This document shows, in pieces, positions 29,070-37,747 of a DNA stretch of 40,344 nt (the stretch's first letter is position 1; each line of letters starts with the position of its first letter). A program made the translations under genes and the position numbers. The stretch lies in NCBI GenBank assembly GCA_009692605.1, contig SHYV01000008.1:1-40344 (forward strand), in the 5' to 3' direction. The notes beneath the pieces were generated by a model. The model did not search any database and was not told where the DNA came from. It saw only the letters and a program-made list of their open reading frames with translations. Source of the stretch: Myxococcales bacterium (GTDB lineage: Bacteria > Myxococcota_A > UBA796 > SXON01).

Positions 29070-32000
29070 ATGCCCGCTCCCCTCGTCGCCGCTCGCCTGA
29101 CCTCTACGCCGGCTGCGAGTAGCCGCGCACCCATCGCCATCATCGGGCAGGCCGCGCTGCTCCCCGGGGCGCGGGACGTCGGGCAGCTCGCCGCCAACGT
29201 GTTGGCGGGACGAGATGCGGTGCAGGGCGCGCCGGCCGGACGTTGGCGTGTGGACGACCGGTTCGTCCTGACCGAGTCCAGCAAGCCGGCCGATGCGCGG
29301 GACAAGGCGTGGTCCTCCTCGGGCGGCTACGTCATCGAGGATCCAAGCGCACAGCTTGACTTCGCCGCGCTGGAGACCCGCGGCGTGCCGGACGGTGGGG
29401 CGTTGGACCCGCTCGTTCGCTGGCTCATGCACGTCGGCGCGGAGTCGCTCCGCTCTGCTGGGATCGATGCTCAGGATGGGCGCACCCGGTCCGGTGTGCT
29501 CCGCCGCGCCGGGGCCATCTTCGGGAACCTCTCGTTTCCGTCTGAGGGCATGGCGCGCTTCGGCGAGGCGGTGCTGCTGCAGCGCTGGGGGCACGACGTG
29601 CCGGTAGGGCCTGCCGTCGACGCGCGCAACCACTTCATGTCGGGCCTCCCCGCTGACCTGATGTCCCGCGCCCTCGGCCTTGGCGCCGGTGCCTTCGCGC
29701 TGGACGCCGCCTGCGCGAGCGCGCTGTACGCGATCAAGCTGGCGTGTGACGCGCTGAATGCAGGCCGCGCCGACATCATGCTCGCCGGCGGGGTGAACCG
29801 CGCTGACAGCCTTTTCCTGCACATCGGGTTCTGCGCGCTTGGGGCCATGTCCAAGACGGGCCAGTCTCGGCCCTTCCATCGCGGCGCGGATGGTCTGGTG
29901 CCCGCGGAGGGCTGCGCGCTCCTGACGCTCAAGCGGCTCGCGGATGCCGAGCGGGACGGTGATGTAATCCTGGGGGTGATCCGCGGGGTCGGTCTGGCCA
30001 ACGATGCGCGGGGGCGCTCGTTGCTCGCGCCGTCGGAAGAAGGGCAGGTTCGAGCAATGCGGCTGGGCTTCGCCGCGGCGGGGGTGTCGCCTGGGGACAT
30101 CCAGCTCATCGAGTGCCATGCCACCGGCACGCCCACTGGGGACCGGGCCGAGCTGGGCAGCATGGCGACGGCCTATGCAGACGCCCCGGAGAGGATCGCG
30201 ATCGGGTCGCTGAAATCCAACCTCGGGCACCTGATCACGGTCGCTGGCGTTGCGGGGATCCAGAAGGTGCTGGCGGGGATGAGCGCCGCGGTCATGCCGG
30301 CGACGCTGCACGTGGATGACGCGATCCCCGAGGCCGATGGCTCCCGCTTTGAGCTGCTCAGGGCCCAGCGGGAGTGGCCGACGGTGGACGGCGTGCGGCG
30401 GGCCGCTGTGTCTGCCTTCGGCTTCGGTGGGAACAACGCCCACTGCATCATCGAGTCGTGGGTTCCGGGGCGATCGGTCTCGGTCGGCGGGTCTGGCGGC
30501 CAAGCGGCGCAGCCGGTGGTCGATCCCGTCGTGGCGGCGAGCGCTCCTCTGGGCGAGCCGGTGGCTGTGGTTGGTCTGGCGGTCATCGCGGGGGAGGGGA
30601 CCGATCGGCATGCGTTTGCGCGAGAGCTGTACAGCGGTCTGCCCGGCCAGCCGAAGGCGGCGGCTCAGCTTGAACTGCCGCTCTCGGGCCTGCGGTTCCC
30701 GCCGAACGATCTCAAGATGAGCCTCGCCCAGCAGACCTGGATGTTCCGGGTCGCAGGCGACGCGCTCAACGACGCGCCTGCGCCGGCCCAGGCCGATCTG
30801 CGCGCGCGTACCGCGGTGGTGGTCGGCATGGGGGCGGATGGCGAGGTCACGGGCTTCGGGCTCCGCTGGCGGCTGCCCAGCTTGGCCAGCCTACTCCCGG
30901 CGATGAAGGCCGGGGACATCGAGGCGCTCAGAGACGCCGCTGCGCCTCCGCTGCGCGCCGAACACGTGATGGGGACGATGCCCAACATCCCGGCGAACCG
31001 CCTGAACGTGCAGCACGACATCGGCGGACCCAGCTTCACGGTGAGCCACGAGGAGCTCTCCGGGATCGCGGCGCTCTCGGTCGGCGTGGGGCTGCTCCGG
31101 GGCGGTGACGCGGATCGGGTGGTTGTCGGCGCCGTCGACCGCGCGGAGGACCCGCGAACCGTACAGGCGTTGCGGGAGTTGGGCGTTGACGGGCAGCCGT
31201 CGACCGCGGCGGTGGCGATGGTGATTCGGCGGCTCGCGGACGCAGAGCGCGACGGCGACCCGATCTACGCGATCGTGGACGCGGTCGACGTGCTCGGGCC
31301 CGGGGAGCAGCATCCAGACGGTGACGTGCCCGCTGCACCGCCCCTGCCAGCCCGCTTTGGGCACGCGCACGCCGCCCAAGGGTTGGTTCAGGTCGCCGCC
31401 GCGGTGCTGGCGCTCCGGTACGGCCGCCGTCCGCCGACGCGCGCTGGCGAAGCGCCGACTCGCCTTGAATCGGCCGCGCTCGCGGTGGTCACGCCCAGCA
31501 TTGGCGGCGCCACGGGGCGCGTGCTCCTGCGCTGCGCAGGGCCGACGCTCGATCTGGGCGAGGACCTCGCTCGCGTCGTGCCAGTGGCCAGCATGACGCT
31601 CACTGTACCGGCGCGGGTGATCGCTGGGGCTGATCCCGCCCCCGCCGCCCCCGCCCCCGCCGCCCCCGCCCCCGCCGTCCCCGCCCCTCTGGAGTCCCAC
31701 GTGCAGCGCATGGCCCCCGCCCCCGTCCTTCCCCCAGTGGCGCTGTTGCCCGCCGGAGCCCTCCCGCGCTCGGCTTCGGCTCTCGCCGCCCCGCCCGCCC
31801 CGGCCCCGCCCGCCCCGGCCCCGCCCGCCCCCGCCGCGCCCGCCCTGGCCTCCGTGGTCGCCGCATCAGGCGTTCTTCCCCCAGCCAACGCGCTGATCGC
31901 CGCCCTGCTCGATCAGCAGAACGCCGTCTCGCGCATTCACGCCGACTTCCTCGCCCGGCAGGCCTCGGTCTACGCAGCGTTCCAGAAGAGCTCCGCCGGT

Positions 32001-35000
32001 ACGCGTGACCTGCTGTTCAACGCCCTTGCCGGCGGGGTGACCGGGCTCGCGCCGGCTCCGATGGCCTGGCCTGATCCAGCCGCCGCGCTGGTCGTCCCGC
32101 CGTTGGCTCCGGCCCCGGCGGGCGCTGCCTCGCCGGTCGCTGCCCCGCTGGCCGTTCCCCCGCCGGTCGCTGCTCCTCCGGCCGCCCGCTCGCCGGCCCC
32201 GCCGGCCGCTGCTCCTCCGGCCGCTGCTCCTCCGCCCGCCCGCTCGCCGGCTCCGCCGGTCGCTCCCGCCGGCCCCGGGGAGGCGCTCCCTGGTCCGCGC
32301 CTCTCCCGACGCGACCTCGAAAATGGCGCCTCCGGCTCGATCTCCACCATCTTCGGCCCGGCGTTCCAGACCTATGACGCCTACAGCCGCGTCGTCCGCA
32401 TGCCCGAGCCGCCGCTTCTGCTGGCCGACCGTGTGCTCGGCATCGAGGGCGAAGCGAAAAAGCTGGGCAAGGGCCGCATCGTCACCGAGACCGACGTCCG
32501 CCCGGACAGCTGGTATGTCCACGACGACCACATCCCCGCCGGCGTGATGATCGAGGCGGGTCAGGCCGACCTCCTGCTCATCAGTTGGCAGGGCATCGAC
32601 GATTCGAACAAGGGCGAGCGCATCTACCGCTTGCTTGGCTGCGATCTCATCTACAAGAACGGCCTTCCCCGGGTCGGCGATACGCTGCAGTACGACATCC
32701 GCTGCGACGGCCATGCCCGCCTCGGCGATATCCGGATGTTCTTCTTCCACTACGCTTGTACTGTGGCCGGCCAGACACGCCTTGAGGTGCGTGAGGGTCA
32801 GGCTGGATTCTTCTCCGACAAGGAGCTGTTGGATTCGGGCGGCGTGCTCTGGGACGCGGCGACCGTCGAGATCGAACTTCCTCCGACCCACCTCGCGGCT
32901 GTGGTCACGCCCGACCGCCTTCAGTTGGATCGCGCGGACTTGCAGGCGCTCGCCGAGGGGCGAGTCGCCGACTGTTTCGGTGAGAGCCACAAGCTAGCCT
33001 GCACGCATACGCTCACCCCGCGCATCGCCGGGGACGGCGGCGCCTTCCCGATGATCTTCCACGACCGGGTGACGATCGACCCCACCGGCGGCCCCTGGGG
33101 GCGCGGCTATTTCCGCAGTGAGCAGGACATCACGCCGGATCTGTGGTTCTTCGACGGCCACTTCAAGGGCGATCCCTGCATGCCCGGCACGCTCATGTTC
33201 GAGGGCTGCCTGCAAGCGATGCAGGTGTACATGACCGCCATCGGGCACACGTTGAGCCGCGACGGGTGGCGATTTGAGCCCAAGGCTGACACGGTGTTCA
33301 AGCTTCGGTGCCGCGGACAGGTGATCCCCACCTCGAAGTTGCTGACTTACGAGCTCTTCGTGATGGAGTGCGGCATCTCGAACGGCCGACCGTTCTTGTC
33401 CGCGCAGGTGATGTGCACCGTCGATGGGCTCAAGTGTTTCCATGCCGACCCGCTGGTCATCGAGATGATCCCGGACTGGCCGTTGTCCCGGATGCGCGAG
33501 TACGACGGCTGGAAGGAGTCGAAGCCGGTCGCGTGGGATTACCGCTCACTCATCGCGTGCGCCTGGGGTAAACCAAGCGAAGCGTTCGGCCCGATGTACA
33601 CTCCGTTTGACGGGCCGATCCGCCCAGCCCGCCTGCCCGGTCCGCCGTACCACTTCATGTCGCGGGTCACGCAGACCACCGGCAAGATGGGGACGATGGA
33701 GGTCGGGAGCACCTGCGAGGTCGAGTACGACGTGCCGGTTGACGCCTGGTATTTCCGGGAGAATGGCCGTGCGGTCATGCCGTTTGCGGTCCTGCTCGAG
33801 GCGGCCCTGCAGCCCTGCGGCTGGCTCGCCAGCTGGAGCGGCTGTGCGCTCACCACCAAGGACGAGCTGCTGTTCCGGAACCTCGACGGCACCGCAGATG
33901 TGCTCTGTGATGTCACGCCCGACATCGGCACGATCCGGACCACCGTGAAGCTCACCAAGCTAAGCAAGACGGCTGGCATGATCATCGTCGGCTTCGAGGT
34001 CGAGATGTTCCGGGCCCTGCCGGCTGCTGGCGGCGCGTCAGGCGGGGAGCAGCGGTTCTACAAGATGGAGACGGTGTTCGGCTTCTTCCCGCCGGCCGCC
34101 TTCGAGAATCAGGTGGGGGTCGGGTCCACGCCGGATGAGCGGGCCTGGCTCGCGTCGCCGTCGGAGTTCTTCGTCGATCTCCACGGCGAAGCTACGAAAT
34201 ACCAGCAGGGCACGCTGCGACTGCCCCCGCCGATGATGTGCATGCTCGACCGGGTGACCGGGTACTGGCCGACCGGCGGGAAGAAGGGGCTCGGGAAATG
34301 GCGGGCCGAGAAGTCCGTCGATCCAAGGGAGTGGATGTTCAAGGCGCACTTCTATCAGGACCCGGTGCAGCCCGGCTCGCTGGGCATCGAAGCGATGGTC
34401 CAGCTCCTGCAGTTCCACATGATCCATCGGGGGTACGGCAGCGAATTCGGAGCGGCGCTCGACAACCCCTGCTTCGAAGCGCTAGGGACCACGGGCCGGC
34501 CCTTGTCTGCCGACGGAACCAAGACCCCGCCGATGACGTGGAAGTACCGCGGTCAGGTCACGCCGAAGACCTTCCTGGTGCAGACCGAGGTGGAGATCGT
34601 CGAGGAGCGCGAGGACTGCGTTCTGGCCGAGGCCCACCTGTGGGTCGACGGAAAGCGGATCTACTCCGCCAAGAACCTTTGTATGCGCGTGGTGAGCGGC
34701 CCCAGCGATGGGGGCGTGCCGAGCGCGCTGGGCGACGGGGAGGGTGGCCGCGACCGACGCCCTTTAGGTGACCGGGCCGCGCAGCCGTTGGCTTCGCGAC
34801 CGGCGGAGGCGGGCGACCCGGGGAGCGGGTTCGAGGCGTTCATTGAGGTTCCCGTGCCGTTCGGACACGCGCCGACTTGGGTGATCCCGAGCCTGCCGAT
34901 GATGACCATGGCGATGCTGTCGTTGCACGGCGCCAGCCGTGCCGGGTTGCATGGGGCGGGGCTGCGGGCCGGCGGCGGCGAGCTGTGGCTGGACGGCACC

Positions 35001-36863
35001 GCGCTGCGTTGGTTCACTTTTCCGGACGGGCCACGGGTGGCGCACATTCGGGCCCTGCCGATCCCCGGTGTTTTGCCCTCGGCGATGGTGACGCTCTCGG
35101 CTTCGACGGGGCCCGCCGCACATCCGCACAAGGGTGAGCCGTTCTTCCGCGCGCGGGTCGGACCCCGGTCCTCCGATGATGGAGCTCCGCTCGAGGTCTG
35201 CTCGCCGCTCGCCGAGCTCCCTCCGCTGCTGGACGCGGGCCCGGGCCGTGATGGGGCCGATCTGTACGCATCCGGCGACCTGTTCCACGGCCCCGAGTTC
35301 GCGGTCGTCGAGCGCGTCCTGGCGACAGGGTCCAACGGATCGAGCCTGCTGCTGCGGCCGTCCGCCCCGGACAAGCTGCTCGATGGCGCCACGCACGGCG
35401 TACCCCACGACCGCCTCGAATTGTGGTTTCCAGAGCTGGCGCCGGGGCAGGTCGGCTATCCATCCCGCCTGCTCGCGCTGGGCCTGTTCGGGGAGATGCC
35501 CCGGGGTCGTGTGCGCTGCGAGGTCCGGCGCGGTGAGGTCGTGAACGGGCGGCCGCGCATCCTTGCGTGGTTTTTTGAGGCGGACGCGGAGCCGGGCTCC
35601 CCGCCCAGTTCGGGCCCCAGCCCGGGGCCCTCGGGGCCCAGCTCGGGCTCCGGTCCCAACGGGCGCCCCTGCGCGTTCTTCCACCTTGAAGAGGTGTTGC
35701 TGCCGAAGGGCCGGATCGGATCGGCCTCGCCGGACCAGCGACGGTCGTTCTTGCAGGGCCAGCCGGTGCCGGGGCTGTCGCTCTCGGTCATCGAGGGCGA
35801 GACGGCGGTGTTGACCGCGCTCGAGGCCCGAGGTTCGGACTGGCTTCCCGGTACGTTGGCGCGTGTTTACGGGACCGACAACCCGCTCTCCATTGCCGCG
35901 AAAGAGCTGGTTGGAGCCCTGTTGGGCGTACACCCGCGCCACGTTGATCTGGAGCCGGTGGCGAATGGGTATTGGGCGCGGGACAGCCATGCTCCATTGG
36001 CAACCTACCGGCTGTCTGTGGACAGCGACCGTGTCACCTTGTCGGCCGCGCCTCGTTCGGGGATCGATCTGGACGGGGTCGTCCGGTGGTGGCGAAAGGA
36101 GCTGGAGTGCGGTGAGTGGCCCGGGGAGGACATCCTCGTCGGGTTGGCCCGCGGCGCGCTTCAAGGCGTCCGGATCGAGGATCCCGATGCGTTCGCTGCC
36201 TTGCACGGGCGCCCCTGCCTGTACGTCGGCAACCACCAGAACTACATCGAGAGTGTGGTTTTCTGCTGTGTGATGTCGGCGCTCTCGGGGGTGACTCTGG
36301 ATGCGCTTGCTAAGCAGGAGCACGCCTCCGGTTGGCTCGGGCACGTGCACGCCTGCCTGACGTCCTGGCGGTCGGTTCATTTTCCCGGCTCGATGGTGTT
36401 CTTCGATCAGTCGAAGCCGGACACCTTGTCCGGGCTGGTCTCTGAGCGCTGTCGCAGCCACTCGTTGCTGGTCCACGTTGAGGGCACTCGGGTGACCACT
36501 CCCGGGCAGCCGGTCCAGAAGATGAGCTCGCTCTGGGTGGACCTCGCTGTCGAACGCGGCATCCCCATCGTGCCGGTCGCCTTCCGCGGCGGCGTTGCTG
36601 GCGCTCGGGTGGACCTGCCGGTCGCGCCGCAGACCCACCACATCGGCGCTCCGATCGCCGTGGCTACGCTCGCCGCGATGCCCTACGCCGCCCGCAGGAA
36701 GCACGTCATGAGCGCGATCAACGCGCTCGGAGTGCCCGAGCAAGCGGCGGGGCAGGTGCTGCCCGCGGGTGACGCTGCGGACGTGGTCAGGGCGCTCGTC
36801 GGGCCCATGGACCGTTGGCGGGGCATCGATGCGGCGTGGGTGGACCGTTGGGAGGGGAAGTGA
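29070..36863 (+). CDS. pfa3: Polyunsaturated fatty acid synthase subunit, Pfa3/PfaC type with AGPAT domain
   Basis: 2597 aa. Order: ketosynthase about 21-465 (Cys215 in DAACAS, His350 in ECHATGT, His387 in KSNLGH, all intact); chain-length factor about 497-830, where the Cys site reads SHEELSG; Ala/Pro linker about 855-1075 with a helical island at 935-990; double-hotdog FabA-type dehydratase 1 about 1105-1480 (His1364 in DGHFKGDPCMPG); dehydratase 2 about 1525-1875 (His1760 in KAHFYQDP); a PKS-type DH-like region about 1920-2250 (LFHGPEF, LLDGATH); and an LPLAT/AGPAT domain about 2380-2530 (NHQNYIES, VEGTR). The KS-CLF-DH-DH-AGPAT order matches myxobacterial Pfa3. No enoyl reductase or acyl-carrier subunit gene is nearby, and no ACP (DSL) motif is seen. 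It overlaps the next gene by 1 nt. Confidence 0.93.
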   Translation: MPAPLVAARLTSTPAASSRAPIAIIGQAALLPGARDVGQLAANVLAGRDAVQGAPAGRWRVDDRFVLTESSKPADARDKAWSSSGGYVIEDPSAQLDFAALETRGVPDGGALDPLVRWLMHVGAESLRSAGIDAQDGRTRSGVLRRAGAIFGNLSFPSEGMARFGEAVLLQRWGHDVPVGPAVDARNHFMSGLPADLMSRALGLGAGAFALDAACASALYAIKLACDALNAGRADIMLAGGVNRADSLFLHIGFCALGAMSKTGQSRPFHRGADGLVPAEGCALLTLKRLADAERDGDVILGVIRGVGLANDARGRSLLAPSEEGQVRAMRLGFAAAGVSPGDIQLIECHATGTPTGDRAELGSMATAYADAPERIAIGSLKSNLGHLITVAGVAGIQKVLAGMSAAVMPATLHVDDAIPEADGSRFELLRAQREWPTVDGVRRAAVSAFGFGGNNAHCIIESWVPGRSVSVGGSGGQAAQPVVDPVVAASAPLGEPVAVVGLAVIAGEGTDRHAFARELYSGLPGQPKAAAQLELPLSGLRFPPNDLKMSLAQQTWMFRVAGDALNDAPAPAQADLRARTAVVVGMGADGEVTGFGLRWRLPSLASLLPAMKAGDIEALRDAAAPPLRAEHVMGTMPNIPANRLNVQHDIGGPSFTVSHEELSGIAALSVGVGLLRGGDADRVVVGAVDRAEDPRTVQALRELGVDGQPSTAAVAMVIRRLADAERDGDPIYAIVDAVDVLGPGEQHPDGDVPAAPPLPARFGHAHAAQGLVQVAAAVLALRYGRRPPTRAGEAPTRLESAALAVVTPSIGGATGRVLLRCAGPTLDLGEDLARVVPVASMTLTVPARVIAGADPAPAAPAPAAPAPAVPAPLESHVQRMAPAPVLPPVALLPAGALPRSASALAAPPAPAPPAPAPPAPAAPALASVVAASGVLPPANALIAALLDQQNAVSRIHADFLARQASVYAAFQKSSAGTRDLLFNALAGGVTGLAPAPMAWPDPAAALVVPPLAPAPAGAASPVAAPLAVPPPVAAPPAARSPAPPAAAPPAAAPPPARSPAPPVAPAGPGEALPGPRLSRRDLENGASGSISTIFGPAFQTYDAYSRVVRMPEPPLLLADRVLGIEGEAKKLGKGRIVTETDVRPDSWYVHDDHIPAGVMIEAGQADLLLISWQGIDDSNKGERIYRLLGCDLIYKNGLPRVGDTLQYDIRCDGHARLGDIRMFFFHYACTVAGQTRLEVREGQAGFFSDKELLDSGGVLWDAATVEIELPPTHLAAVVTPDRLQLDRADLQALAEGRVADCFGESHKLACTHTLTPRIAGDGGAFPMIFHDRVTIDPTGGPWGRGYFRSEQDITPDLWFFDGHFKGDPCMPGTLMFEGCLQAMQVYMTAIGHTLSRDGWRFEPKADTVFKLRCRGQVIPTSKLLTYELFVMECGISNGRPFLSAQVMCTVDGLKCFHADPLVIEMIPDWPLSRMREYDGWKESKPVAWDYRSLIACAWGKPSEAFGPMYTPFDGPIRPARLPGPPYHFMSRVTQTTGKMGTMEVGSTCEVEYDVPVDAWYFRENGRAVMPFAVLLEAALQPCGWLASWSGCALTTKDELLFRNLDGTADVLCDVTPDIGTIRTTVKLTKLSKTAGMIIVGFEVEMFRALPAAGGASGGEQRFYKMETVFGFFPPAAFENQVGVGSTPDERAWLASPSEFFVDLHGEATKYQQGTLRLPPPMMCMLDRVTGYWPTGGKKGLGKWRAEKSVDPREWMFKAHFYQDPVQPGSLGIEAMVQLLQFHMIHRGYGSEFGAALDNPCFEALGTTGRPLSADGTKTPPMTWKYRGQVTPKTFLVQTEVEIVEEREDCVLAEAHLWVDGKRIYSAKNLCMRVVSGPSDGGVPSALGDGEGGRDRRPLGDRAAQPLASRPAEAGDPGSGFEAFIEVPVPFGHAPTWVIPSLPMMTMAMLSLHGASRAGLHGAGLRAGGGELWLDGTALRWFTFPDGPRVAHIRALPIPGVLPSAMVTLSASTGPAAHPHKGEPFFRARVGPRSSDDGAPLEVCSPLAELPPLLDAGPGRDGADLYASGDLFHGPEFAVVERVLATGSNGSSLLLRPSAPDKLLDGATHGVPHDRLELWFPELAPGQVGYPSRLLALGLFGEMPRGRVRCEVRRGEVVNGRPRILAWFFEADAEPGSPPSSGPSPGPSGPSSGSGPNGRPCAFFHLEEVLLPKGRIGSASPDQRRSFLQGQPVPGLSLSVIEGETAVLTALEARGSDWLPGTLARVYGTDNPLSIAAKELVGALLGVHPRHVDLEPVANGYWARDSHAPLATYRLSVDSDRVTLSAAPRSGIDLDGVVRWWRKELECGEWPGEDILVGLARGALQGVRIEDPDAFAALHGRPCLYVGNHQNYIESVVFCCVMSALSGVTLDALAKQEHASGWLGHVHACLTSWRSVHFPGSMVFFDQSKPDTLSGLVSERCRSHSLLVHVEGTRVTTPGQPVQKMSSLWVDLAVERGIPIVPVAFRGGVAGARVDLPVAPQTHHIGAPIAVATLAAMPYAARRKHVMSAINALGVPEQAAGQVLPAGDAADVVRALVGPMDRWRGIDAAWVDRWEGK
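31636..31848 (+). repeat. C-rich (GCCCCC) repeats encoding the Ala/Pro linker
   Basis: Long runs of CCCGCC/GCCCCC encode Ala-Pro repeats of the PUFA-synthase linker; a second such tract lies at about 32090-32270. The complementary strand has closely spaced G-runs able to form G-quadruplexes. Confidence 0.7.
36851..36855 (+). promoter_or_regulatory. Shine-Dalgarno of the NAT-like gene inside pfa3
   Basis: GGAGG, extended to GGAGGGG, lies 7 nt before ATG 36863. It sits within the last codons of pfa3 and fixes the NAT start at the TGATG overlap. Confidence 0.7.
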
Positions 36864-37747
36864 TGACTGTGCAGATGTCAGCAGAGGAGATGGCCGCCTA
36901 TCTGGATCGCGTCGGGCTGAGCGTCGCCTTCGGCAGTGACGTGCCGGGGCCCACCCTGGAGACCCTCCGGGCTGTGGTGCTGGCCCACATCGAGCACATC
37001 CCCTTCGAGAACCTGGACGTGCTGCTGGGCCGGCCGATCCGGCTGGATGAGGCTGCGATCTTCAAGAAGCTGGTGACCGACCACCGCGGTGGGTACTGCT
37101 TTGAGCAGAACGGGCTGCTCCTGTGGGTGCTCCAGTCGCTCGGTTTTGACGCCACGCCGATCAGCGCCCGGGTCCGGCTAGGACGGGCCAGAGACTTCAC
37201 TCCAGCGCGCTCACACGCCTTTCTGCGGGTCGAGATCGAGGGTCACTCCTGGCTCGCCGATGTGGGCGTGGGAGGGCTCTCTCCCACCGCCCCGCTCCGG
37301 CTCACTACGGTTCGGGCCGACAGCGCGGACGTTCAGGACACCCCGCACGAACCCCGCCGGCTGATCTCTGAGCCCGGCACGCCAAGCGAGCGGCTGTTCC
37401 ATCAGGTGCGGATCGCCGGTGAGTGGCAGGATGTCTGTGAGTTCACGCTTGAGCCCATGCCGCTCATCGACCGTGAGGTCGCCAATTGGTACACCAGCGC
37501 TCACCCCCAGTCGCACTTTCGGAATCGGCTGCTCGTCGCCCGCGCAGGGCCGGACGGCGAGAGGCTGACGCTCCTCAACCGGGAGTTGACGCGGCGGTGG
37601 GGAGCCGCTGCGGATCAGCGCGTTGAGGTCACCTCGATCAGGAGCCCTGAGCACCTGCTCTCGGTCCTGACCGAGGTTTTCGGGGTGACGCTGCCGGCGG
37701 GCACGGCGCTGATTTGCGAGGGGCTGGACTTCACGACGAATTCCTGA
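36863..37747 (+). CDS. Arylamine N-acetyltransferase (NAT) family protein
   Basis: 294 aa, near the usual 275-290. The cysteine-protease-like catalytic triad is complete: Cys79 in RGGYCFEQN, His118 in RSHAFLRV and Asp133 in LADVGVGG, with family spacing. The N-terminal YLDRVGL and HIEHIPFENLDVLLGR blocks are also typical. NATs transfer acyl groups from acyl-CoA to amines; a branch (for example RifF-type amide synthases) releases polyketide chains as amides. The start overlaps the pfa3 stop (TGATG) with a strong Shine-Dalgarno, so it is translated with the PUFA synthase subunit. Acting on that enzyme's acyl product is an attractive inference, not shown. Confidence 0.9.
   Translation: MTVQMSAEEMAAYLDRVGLSVAFGSDVPGPTLETLRAVVLAHIEHIPFENLDVLLGRPIRLDEAAIFKKLVTDHRGGYCFEQNGLLLWVLQSLGFDATPISARVRLGRARDFTPARSHAFLRVEIEGHSWLADVGVGGLSPTAPLRLTTVRADSADVQDTPHEPRRLISEPGTPSERLFHQVRIAGEWQDVCEFTLEPMPLIDREVANWYTSAHPQSHFRNRLLVARAGPDGERLTLLNRELTRRWGAAADQRVEVTSIRSPEHLLSVLTEVFGVTLPAGTALICEGLDFTTNS

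Follow-up and report, generated by a model that had tools for sequence, protein, structure and literature searches.

A Pfa3-Type PUFA Synthase Subunit and Its Architecture

The window analyzed here is a stretch of 40,344 nucleotides and spans all of contig C130 in a MAG of 3.89 Mb (G000, 79% complete, 186 contigs). It carries a long open reading frame, pfa3, whose product is a multidomain protein with the features listed in Table 1. Pfam analysis of this protein reveals two KS units, four FabA-like stretches (PF07977), and one AGPAT-type acyltransferase. These matches bear out the KS-CLF-linker-DH-DH-AGPAT order of a Pfa3-type protein proposed in the original prediction, which also stated correctly that the KS active-site residues (here Cys215, His350, and His387) and both FabA-type DH histidines are present. 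The latter reside in the motifs GHFKGDPCMPG (His1364) and AHFYQDPVQPG (His1760). All of these residues, along with His2389 and the EGTR motif of the AGPAT domain, are retained in 20 relatives wherever the contig covers the respective position. The PF01553 score for the AGPAT domain is barely over the threshold (23.8 versus 23), and an HX4E motif replaces HX4D in all 79 aligned Pfa3 proteins, including those of M. rosea and Sorangium.

Table 1. Coordinates of the pfa3 gene, its encoded domains, and associated features (nucleotide positions refer to the window unless a locus is named)
Feature	Position	Strand	Basis
pfa3 ORF, 2597 aa, KS-CLF-linker-DH2-DH3-DH4-module-AGPAT	29070..36863	+	ATG start, Pfam, motif positions
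KS domain, residues 21-465, Cys215/His350/His387	29130..30464	+	Pfam and motif positions
CLF, second KS unit, residues 480-800, without active-site Cys (VSHEELSG 658-665)	30507..31469	+	Second KS stretch in Pfam; conserved in relatives
Ala/Pro-rich linker, residues 801-1080, at the position of AT2 in M. rosea Pfa3	31470..32309	+	No Acyl_transf match; no match with M. rosea AT2 query
DH2, FabA-type double hotdog (pseudo + active, His1364)	32322..33539	+	PF07977 stretches; invariance
DH3, second FabA-type double hotdog, His1760	33567..34739	+	PF07977 stretches; invariance
DH4, PKS-type dehydratase, double hotdog, residues 1922-2235	34833..35774	+	AF2, Foldseek, profile matches to CurH and borrelidin DH
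DH4 catalytic His1933 (HAPTW)	34866..34868	+	His in 79/79; register with M. rosea His2270; H2270A phenotype
DH4 catalytic Asp2105 (LLDGATH)	35382..35384	+	Asp in 79/79
Small alpha/beta module between DH4 and AGPAT, residues 2240-2335	35787..36074	+	AF2 model; weak likeness to PPTase KE helix
AGPAT domain, HX4E (His2389/Glu2394), EGTR motif	36102..36839	+	PF01553; HX4E in 79/79
Arylamine N-acetyltransferase-like ORF, ATG overlapping pfa3 stop	36863..37747	+	PF00797; flank comparison
Split pfa2 loci in genus g3 (other genomes)	L165:10205-16581 (G015); L166, L167, L168, L169, L176, L178, L218

No AT2 domain was detected between CLF and DH2, either by Pfam or by using M. rosea AT2 as a query. The same query produced a strong AT2 match in 26 other Pfa3 proteins, and AT2 is a variable feature of the Pfa3 family. 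Judged from these features, the protein is best classified as a myxobacterial-type Pfa3 (a PfaC homolog with AGPAT) of the M. rosea DH4 subtype, but without AT2.

Two additional observations concern Pfa3 proteins and their surroundings. The Pfa3 of Sorangium cellulosum So ce26 (L106) is matched strongly by M. rosea AT2 (E=2e-235) and also carries the DH4 dyad; So ce56 has been reported to be without an AT (PMC8436480). In the window, the start codon of the arylamine N-acetyltransferase-like ORF and the stop codon of pfa3 overlap as TGATG. We do not assign this ORF to the system, because no counterpart was found in the flanks of pfa3 in three other genomes of the genus (G001-G003).

The module at residues 2240-2335 matched neither a Pfam family nor a PDB sequence. 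Its AxKE helix and invariant HP faintly resemble the second half of a PPTase (AAKELV...GVHPR compared with AVKEAVLKALG...SPRD). A relic PPTase was not supported by profile-profile comparison, in which hhalign aligned only the AxKE helix without significance (E=0.056, probability about 1%).

A PKS-Type Dehydratase With a Family-Specific Motif

The original prediction described the region between DH3 and AGPAT as a likely PKS-type DH hotdog pair that was unexpected in a Pfa3 protein and that retained only a degenerate HxxxGxxxxP motif (HAPTWVIPSLP). When the window protein is searched alone for a PF14765-type PKS-DH region, this single sequence matches none of the Pfam families, and structure prediction from it yields a pLDDT of only 32. 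One scan of GTDB genomes retrieved 563 relatives of the DH3-DH4-AGPAT part, of which 80 were kept and 78 ORFs were aligned. Among homologs of the DH4 region, PS-DH is matched in 52 of 79 and PKS_DH_N in 43 of 79, and the family profile matches the solved PKS dehydratases CurH (E=1.5e-8), fluvirucin DH, and borrelidin DH. Repeating the AlphaFold2 prediction with 79 sequences resulted in a model with a pLDDT of 90.4 and a pTM of 0.88. The leading Foldseek matches to this model are all PKS dehydratases, namely RzxB (E=4.5e-11), MlnB, CurJ, and PksJ. Thus, the Pfam matches of homologs, the profile matches, and the predicted fold together indicate that the PKS-type double hotdog is real, despite a signal that is too weak to be seen with the single sequence.

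The sequence motifs of the region (HAPTW at 1933, LFHGPEF at 2071, and LLDGATH at 2103) include His1933, Asp2105, and His2109, which are invariant in 79 of 79 aligned Pfa3 proteins. In place of the canonical HxxxGxxxxP motif of PKS dehydratases (PF14765/PF21089), the aligned DH4 domains share the pattern DHxPTW..P..P. Given that His1933 is invariant, the motif that appeared degenerate is more appropriately viewed as a family signature surrounding a conserved catalytic His. Residues 1922-2235 are a PKS-type double-hotdog DH, situated between DH3 and AGPAT, with an intact His-Asp dyad.

A dehydratase at this position also has precedent. A PKS-type DH4 domain has been described in the Pfa3 of M. 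rosea, and none is present in that of Aetherobacter (Gemperlein et al. 2019, PMC6731297). When DH4 was put into the Aetherobacter synthase, the product shifted toward n-3 DPA, and the H2270A mutation returned the profile of the hybrid to that seen without DH4 (PMC6731297). With numbering that begins at the GTG of VRFEPIAIVGEG, the His of the M. rosea (L099) DHRPTW motif is residue 2270, and it occupies the same alignment column as His1933. Consequently, the His of the variant motif is needed in M. rosea, and the odd region can be settled as the product-tuning DH4 studied earlier in that organism. That DH4 affects the product through this His is known from M. rosea, and by analogy the domain may act similarly here.

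Nor is the domain restricted to these two proteins. Nearly all of the 80 loci from named genomes have a DH4 that could be detected or aligned, and by alignment most of the retrieved Pfa3 proteins carry DH4 with an intact dyad, so that its absence from Aetherobacter looks like the exception. The dyad occurs in records labeled by their submitters as Myxococcota, Acidobacteriota, Planctomycetota, Firmicutes (Paenibacillus), and others.

Partner Genes Reside Elsewhere in the Same Genome

Neither pfa1 nor pfa2 is found in the window, which confirms across the whole of contig C130 (40 kb) that no partner gene lies near pfa3, as had been noted originally. From this arrangement it had been surmised that pfa3 is an orphan, and one could imagine a decaying remnant of a lost pfa cluster that operates outside any working synthase. 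The same MAG, however, encodes a single pfa2 (KS-AT-4xACP-KR-PKS-DH) on contig C129, at about 19.9-26.8 kb of 40.7 kb, and a single pfa1 (C7:18216-19877). The latter is 57-87% identical to members of the PfaD group that holds those inside intact clusters. A second PfaD gene (G000:C19:1365-2684, L014) was rejected as pfa1 because it is ~50% identical and falls outside the clustered-PfaD group; a counterpart of this paralog is present in most genomes of the family.

Searches of the family's 22 genomes recovered pfa1 in 20, pfa2 in 21, and pfa3 in 20, with a single match per gene at the thresholds applied. The search did not recover pfa3 from two genomes (G004 and G006) that retain pfa2, a result that favors a decaying Pfa3. 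In contrast, full-length pfa3 is present in G001-G003, all catalytic residues are intact, and dN/dS is 0.17-0.23 for pfa3 over about 2460 codons. For all three genes the ratio ranges from 0.07 to 0.23, and all three are under purifying selection. The retained gene set thus largely refutes an orphan or decaying Pfa3, which we consider highly improbable even though its 40-kb contig is without pfa1 or pfa2.

Two further searches concerned other components. PPTase genes (PF01648), whose products are needed to activate the ACPs, gave no match in the 79%-complete G000, which counts against a functional synthase there, and two matches in every one of the genus's four remaining genomes. In G000, no gene could be designated a separate PfaB-like AT; the search recovered the Pfa2 AT, one more AT on contig C98, and one match below threshold.

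The Three Subunit Genes Are Dispersed

The genes pfa1, pfa2, and pfa3 were all found in four genomes of the genus, G000-G003, and in each of these they are unlinked. In these genomes, pfa1 is accompanied by lgt-like and heptosyltransferase genes. The pfa2 gene has relA/spoT on one side and an IF-2B family gene on the other, with ABC and gyrA genes beyond the latter, in G000-G004. The pfa3 gene is positioned downstream of an EF-P gene (G000 and G001) or a CarboxypepD_reg gene (G000 and G002).

Because all genomes involved are MAGs, linkage is judged from draft contigs, and with G000 in 186 pieces it might be argued that the separation is an artifact of assembly or binning and that the chromosome itself carries the genes side by side. 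However, each gene is located well inside its contig amid unrelated neighbors that are common to several MAGs, and in G002 pfa3 resides on a contig of 173 kb. Furthermore, the same search recovers adjacent pfa1-pfa2-pfa3 genes in G005 and in the outgroups G027, G029, and G032. Misassembly is unlikely given that the same flanks recur across several independent bins, and we judge an artifactual origin of the dispersal to be extremely improbable.

Linkage is the prevailing state elsewhere. In G008, G021, G019, G020, G009, and G013, pfa2 is linked to pfa3 or to the start of a Pfa3-like KS-CLF ORF. Of the 80 named-genome loci, 50 offer enough upstream sequence to judge, and in 46 of these pfa2 is linked to pfa3, directly upstream of it. 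This count comprises 43 loci scored as linked by script and three (L109, L129, and L135) that we added because a KR-DH ORF below the script threshold lies directly upstream. The four unlinked loci (L065, L072, L073, and L079) are all from the family of the window.

On a Pfa3 tree, the unlinked state maps to the genus of the window and part of genus g3, and the linked state to the outgroups, G005, G008, G021, and g6. This distribution, on a quick tree in which some forks are unresolved, suggests two unlinking events. The nearest named relatives are Sandaracinaceae, Polyangiaceae, and Minicystis, and on this basis the uncultured host is probably a Polyangia-like member of the Myxococcota.

With the orphan status, the extra DH, and its motif mostly explained, what remains new is that this genus has its three subunit genes dispersed. 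Searches of the open-access literature yielded no description of bacterial pfa1-3 genes scattered in this way. The system is an example of a bacterial PUFA megasynthase with subunit genes that no longer share one cluster. As a result, genome mining based on clusters would miss such producers or mis-score them, for example as an “orphan pfa3.”

Comparison With Known PUFA Synthases

The closest match in architecture is the AA/DTA-type PUFA synthase of M. rosea (PMC6731297), whose Pfa3 shares the KS-CLF-DH2-DH3-DH4(PKS type)-AGPAT order, the register of the DH4 His (2270 = 1933), the DHxPTW motif, and the HX4E version of AGPAT. Over the DH3-DH4-AGPAT part, the best tblastn segment shows about 37% identity between the two proteins. 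The two systems differ in that the M. rosea protein carries AT2 between CLF and DH2, and in that its gene adjoins pfa1 and pfa2 (PMC8436480), whereas the three genes described here are unlinked. The DPA/DHA-type Pfa3 of Aetherobacter fasciculatus shares the KS-CLF-DH-DH-AGPAT core but has AT2 and no DH4 (PMC6731297, PMC8436480).

Type L pfa clusters (Shulse and Allen 2011, PMC3098273; PMC4882568) likewise encode a PfaD homolog together with PfaA-like and fused PfaC-like proteins. Those clusters are contiguous, with pfaD at the 5' end. We refrain from assigning the present system to Type L because contiguity was tested and the genes were found at three separate loci, on three contigs with conserved unrelated neighbors. 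Thraustochytrid PUFA synthases (PFA1-3) also consist of three polypeptides, but they are eukaryotic, group their domains differently (PMC4882568), and have no AGPAT fusion.

A Proposed Synthase Acting in Trans

Based on these findings, the three dispersed single-copy genes very probably encode a complete Pfa1-3 PUFA synthase whose subunits act in trans. Pfa2 would load malonate, hold the growing chain on its tandem ACPs, and reduce the 3-keto group. Chain extension would be performed by the KS-CLF of Pfa3, and the FabA-type DH2 and DH3 domains would dehydrate and isomerize to produce cis double bonds. DH4, through His1933 and Asp2105, may dehydrate at selected rounds and so tune double-bond number and position, and Pfa1, the enoyl reductase, would act when enoyl reduction is needed. 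Given that Pfa3 is without AT2, we propose that AGPAT ends the cycle by transferring the acyl chain to lysophosphatidate, a release step that we infer from published proposals. The change to HX4E could affect this release. AT2 is thought to influence the final product, and without it the range of products is predicted to differ from those of M. rosea and Aetherobacter. PUFA production by this organism, the identity of its PUFAs, and the order of the steps are all inferred by analogy with characterized systems.

Alternatively, the product might be a polyketide or a specialized, nonmembrane lipid, which the N-acetyltransferase-like enzyme whose PF00797 ORF begins on the pfa3 stop codon might capture. 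Arylamine N-acetyltransferase-like enzymes release some polyketides as amides (rifamycin RifF). In addition, PUFA-type synthases are known from hybrid pathways (PMC13291983). However, no such ORF was found in the flanks of pfa3 in G001-G003, the presence of a fused AGPAT suggests phospholipid acylation, and housekeeping genes predominate around all three loci. We consider a specialized product very unlikely.

A Split pfa2 Gene in Genera g3 and g5

In eight genomes of sister genus g3 (G006, G010, G012, and G014-G018), Pfa2 is encoded by two ORFs that divide the protein into KS-AT-ACP and KR-DH portions. The KS-AT-ACP ORF ends with C-CCY...TAG, a GC hairpin (-14 to -20 kcal/mol) follows directly, and the KR-DH ORF lies in the -1 frame. 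A whole-genome pattern search located the hairpin once per genome in G006, G012, G014, G015, G017, and G018, always at this junction, and a variant at the same spot was seen by eye in G010 and G016. In G021, the hairpin (with two mismatches) is found within an uninterrupted ORF.

Between the hairpin and the first shared ATG or TTG, most of the variation among seven genomes affects the third position of -1 frame codons (195 versus 91 and 80), although these pairwise counts are not independent and so provide a lead rather than proof. The bias suggests that the segment preceding the first shared start is translated. Together, these sequence characteristics suggest that the g3 junction is a site of programmed -1 frameshifting or of stop-restart.

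Because the three genes are separated in the genus of the window, the balance among subunits cannot rest on one operon. One might speculate that three independently regulated single-gene loci amid housekeeping genes, along with recoding of pfa2 in the sister genus (a candidate -1 frameshift or stop-restart with a conserved hairpin between KS-AT-ACP and KR-DH), permit subunit stoichiometry, and hence PUFA composition, to be tuned by separate expression and recoding rather than through one operon. At this time, we regard this scenario as unlikely.

In genus g5 (L177, G008:C55), Pfa2 is cut at the same ACP-KR junction. The L177 junction carries CCCTTTC, which has the appearance of a canonical -1 slippery heptamer, directly before a TGA codon.
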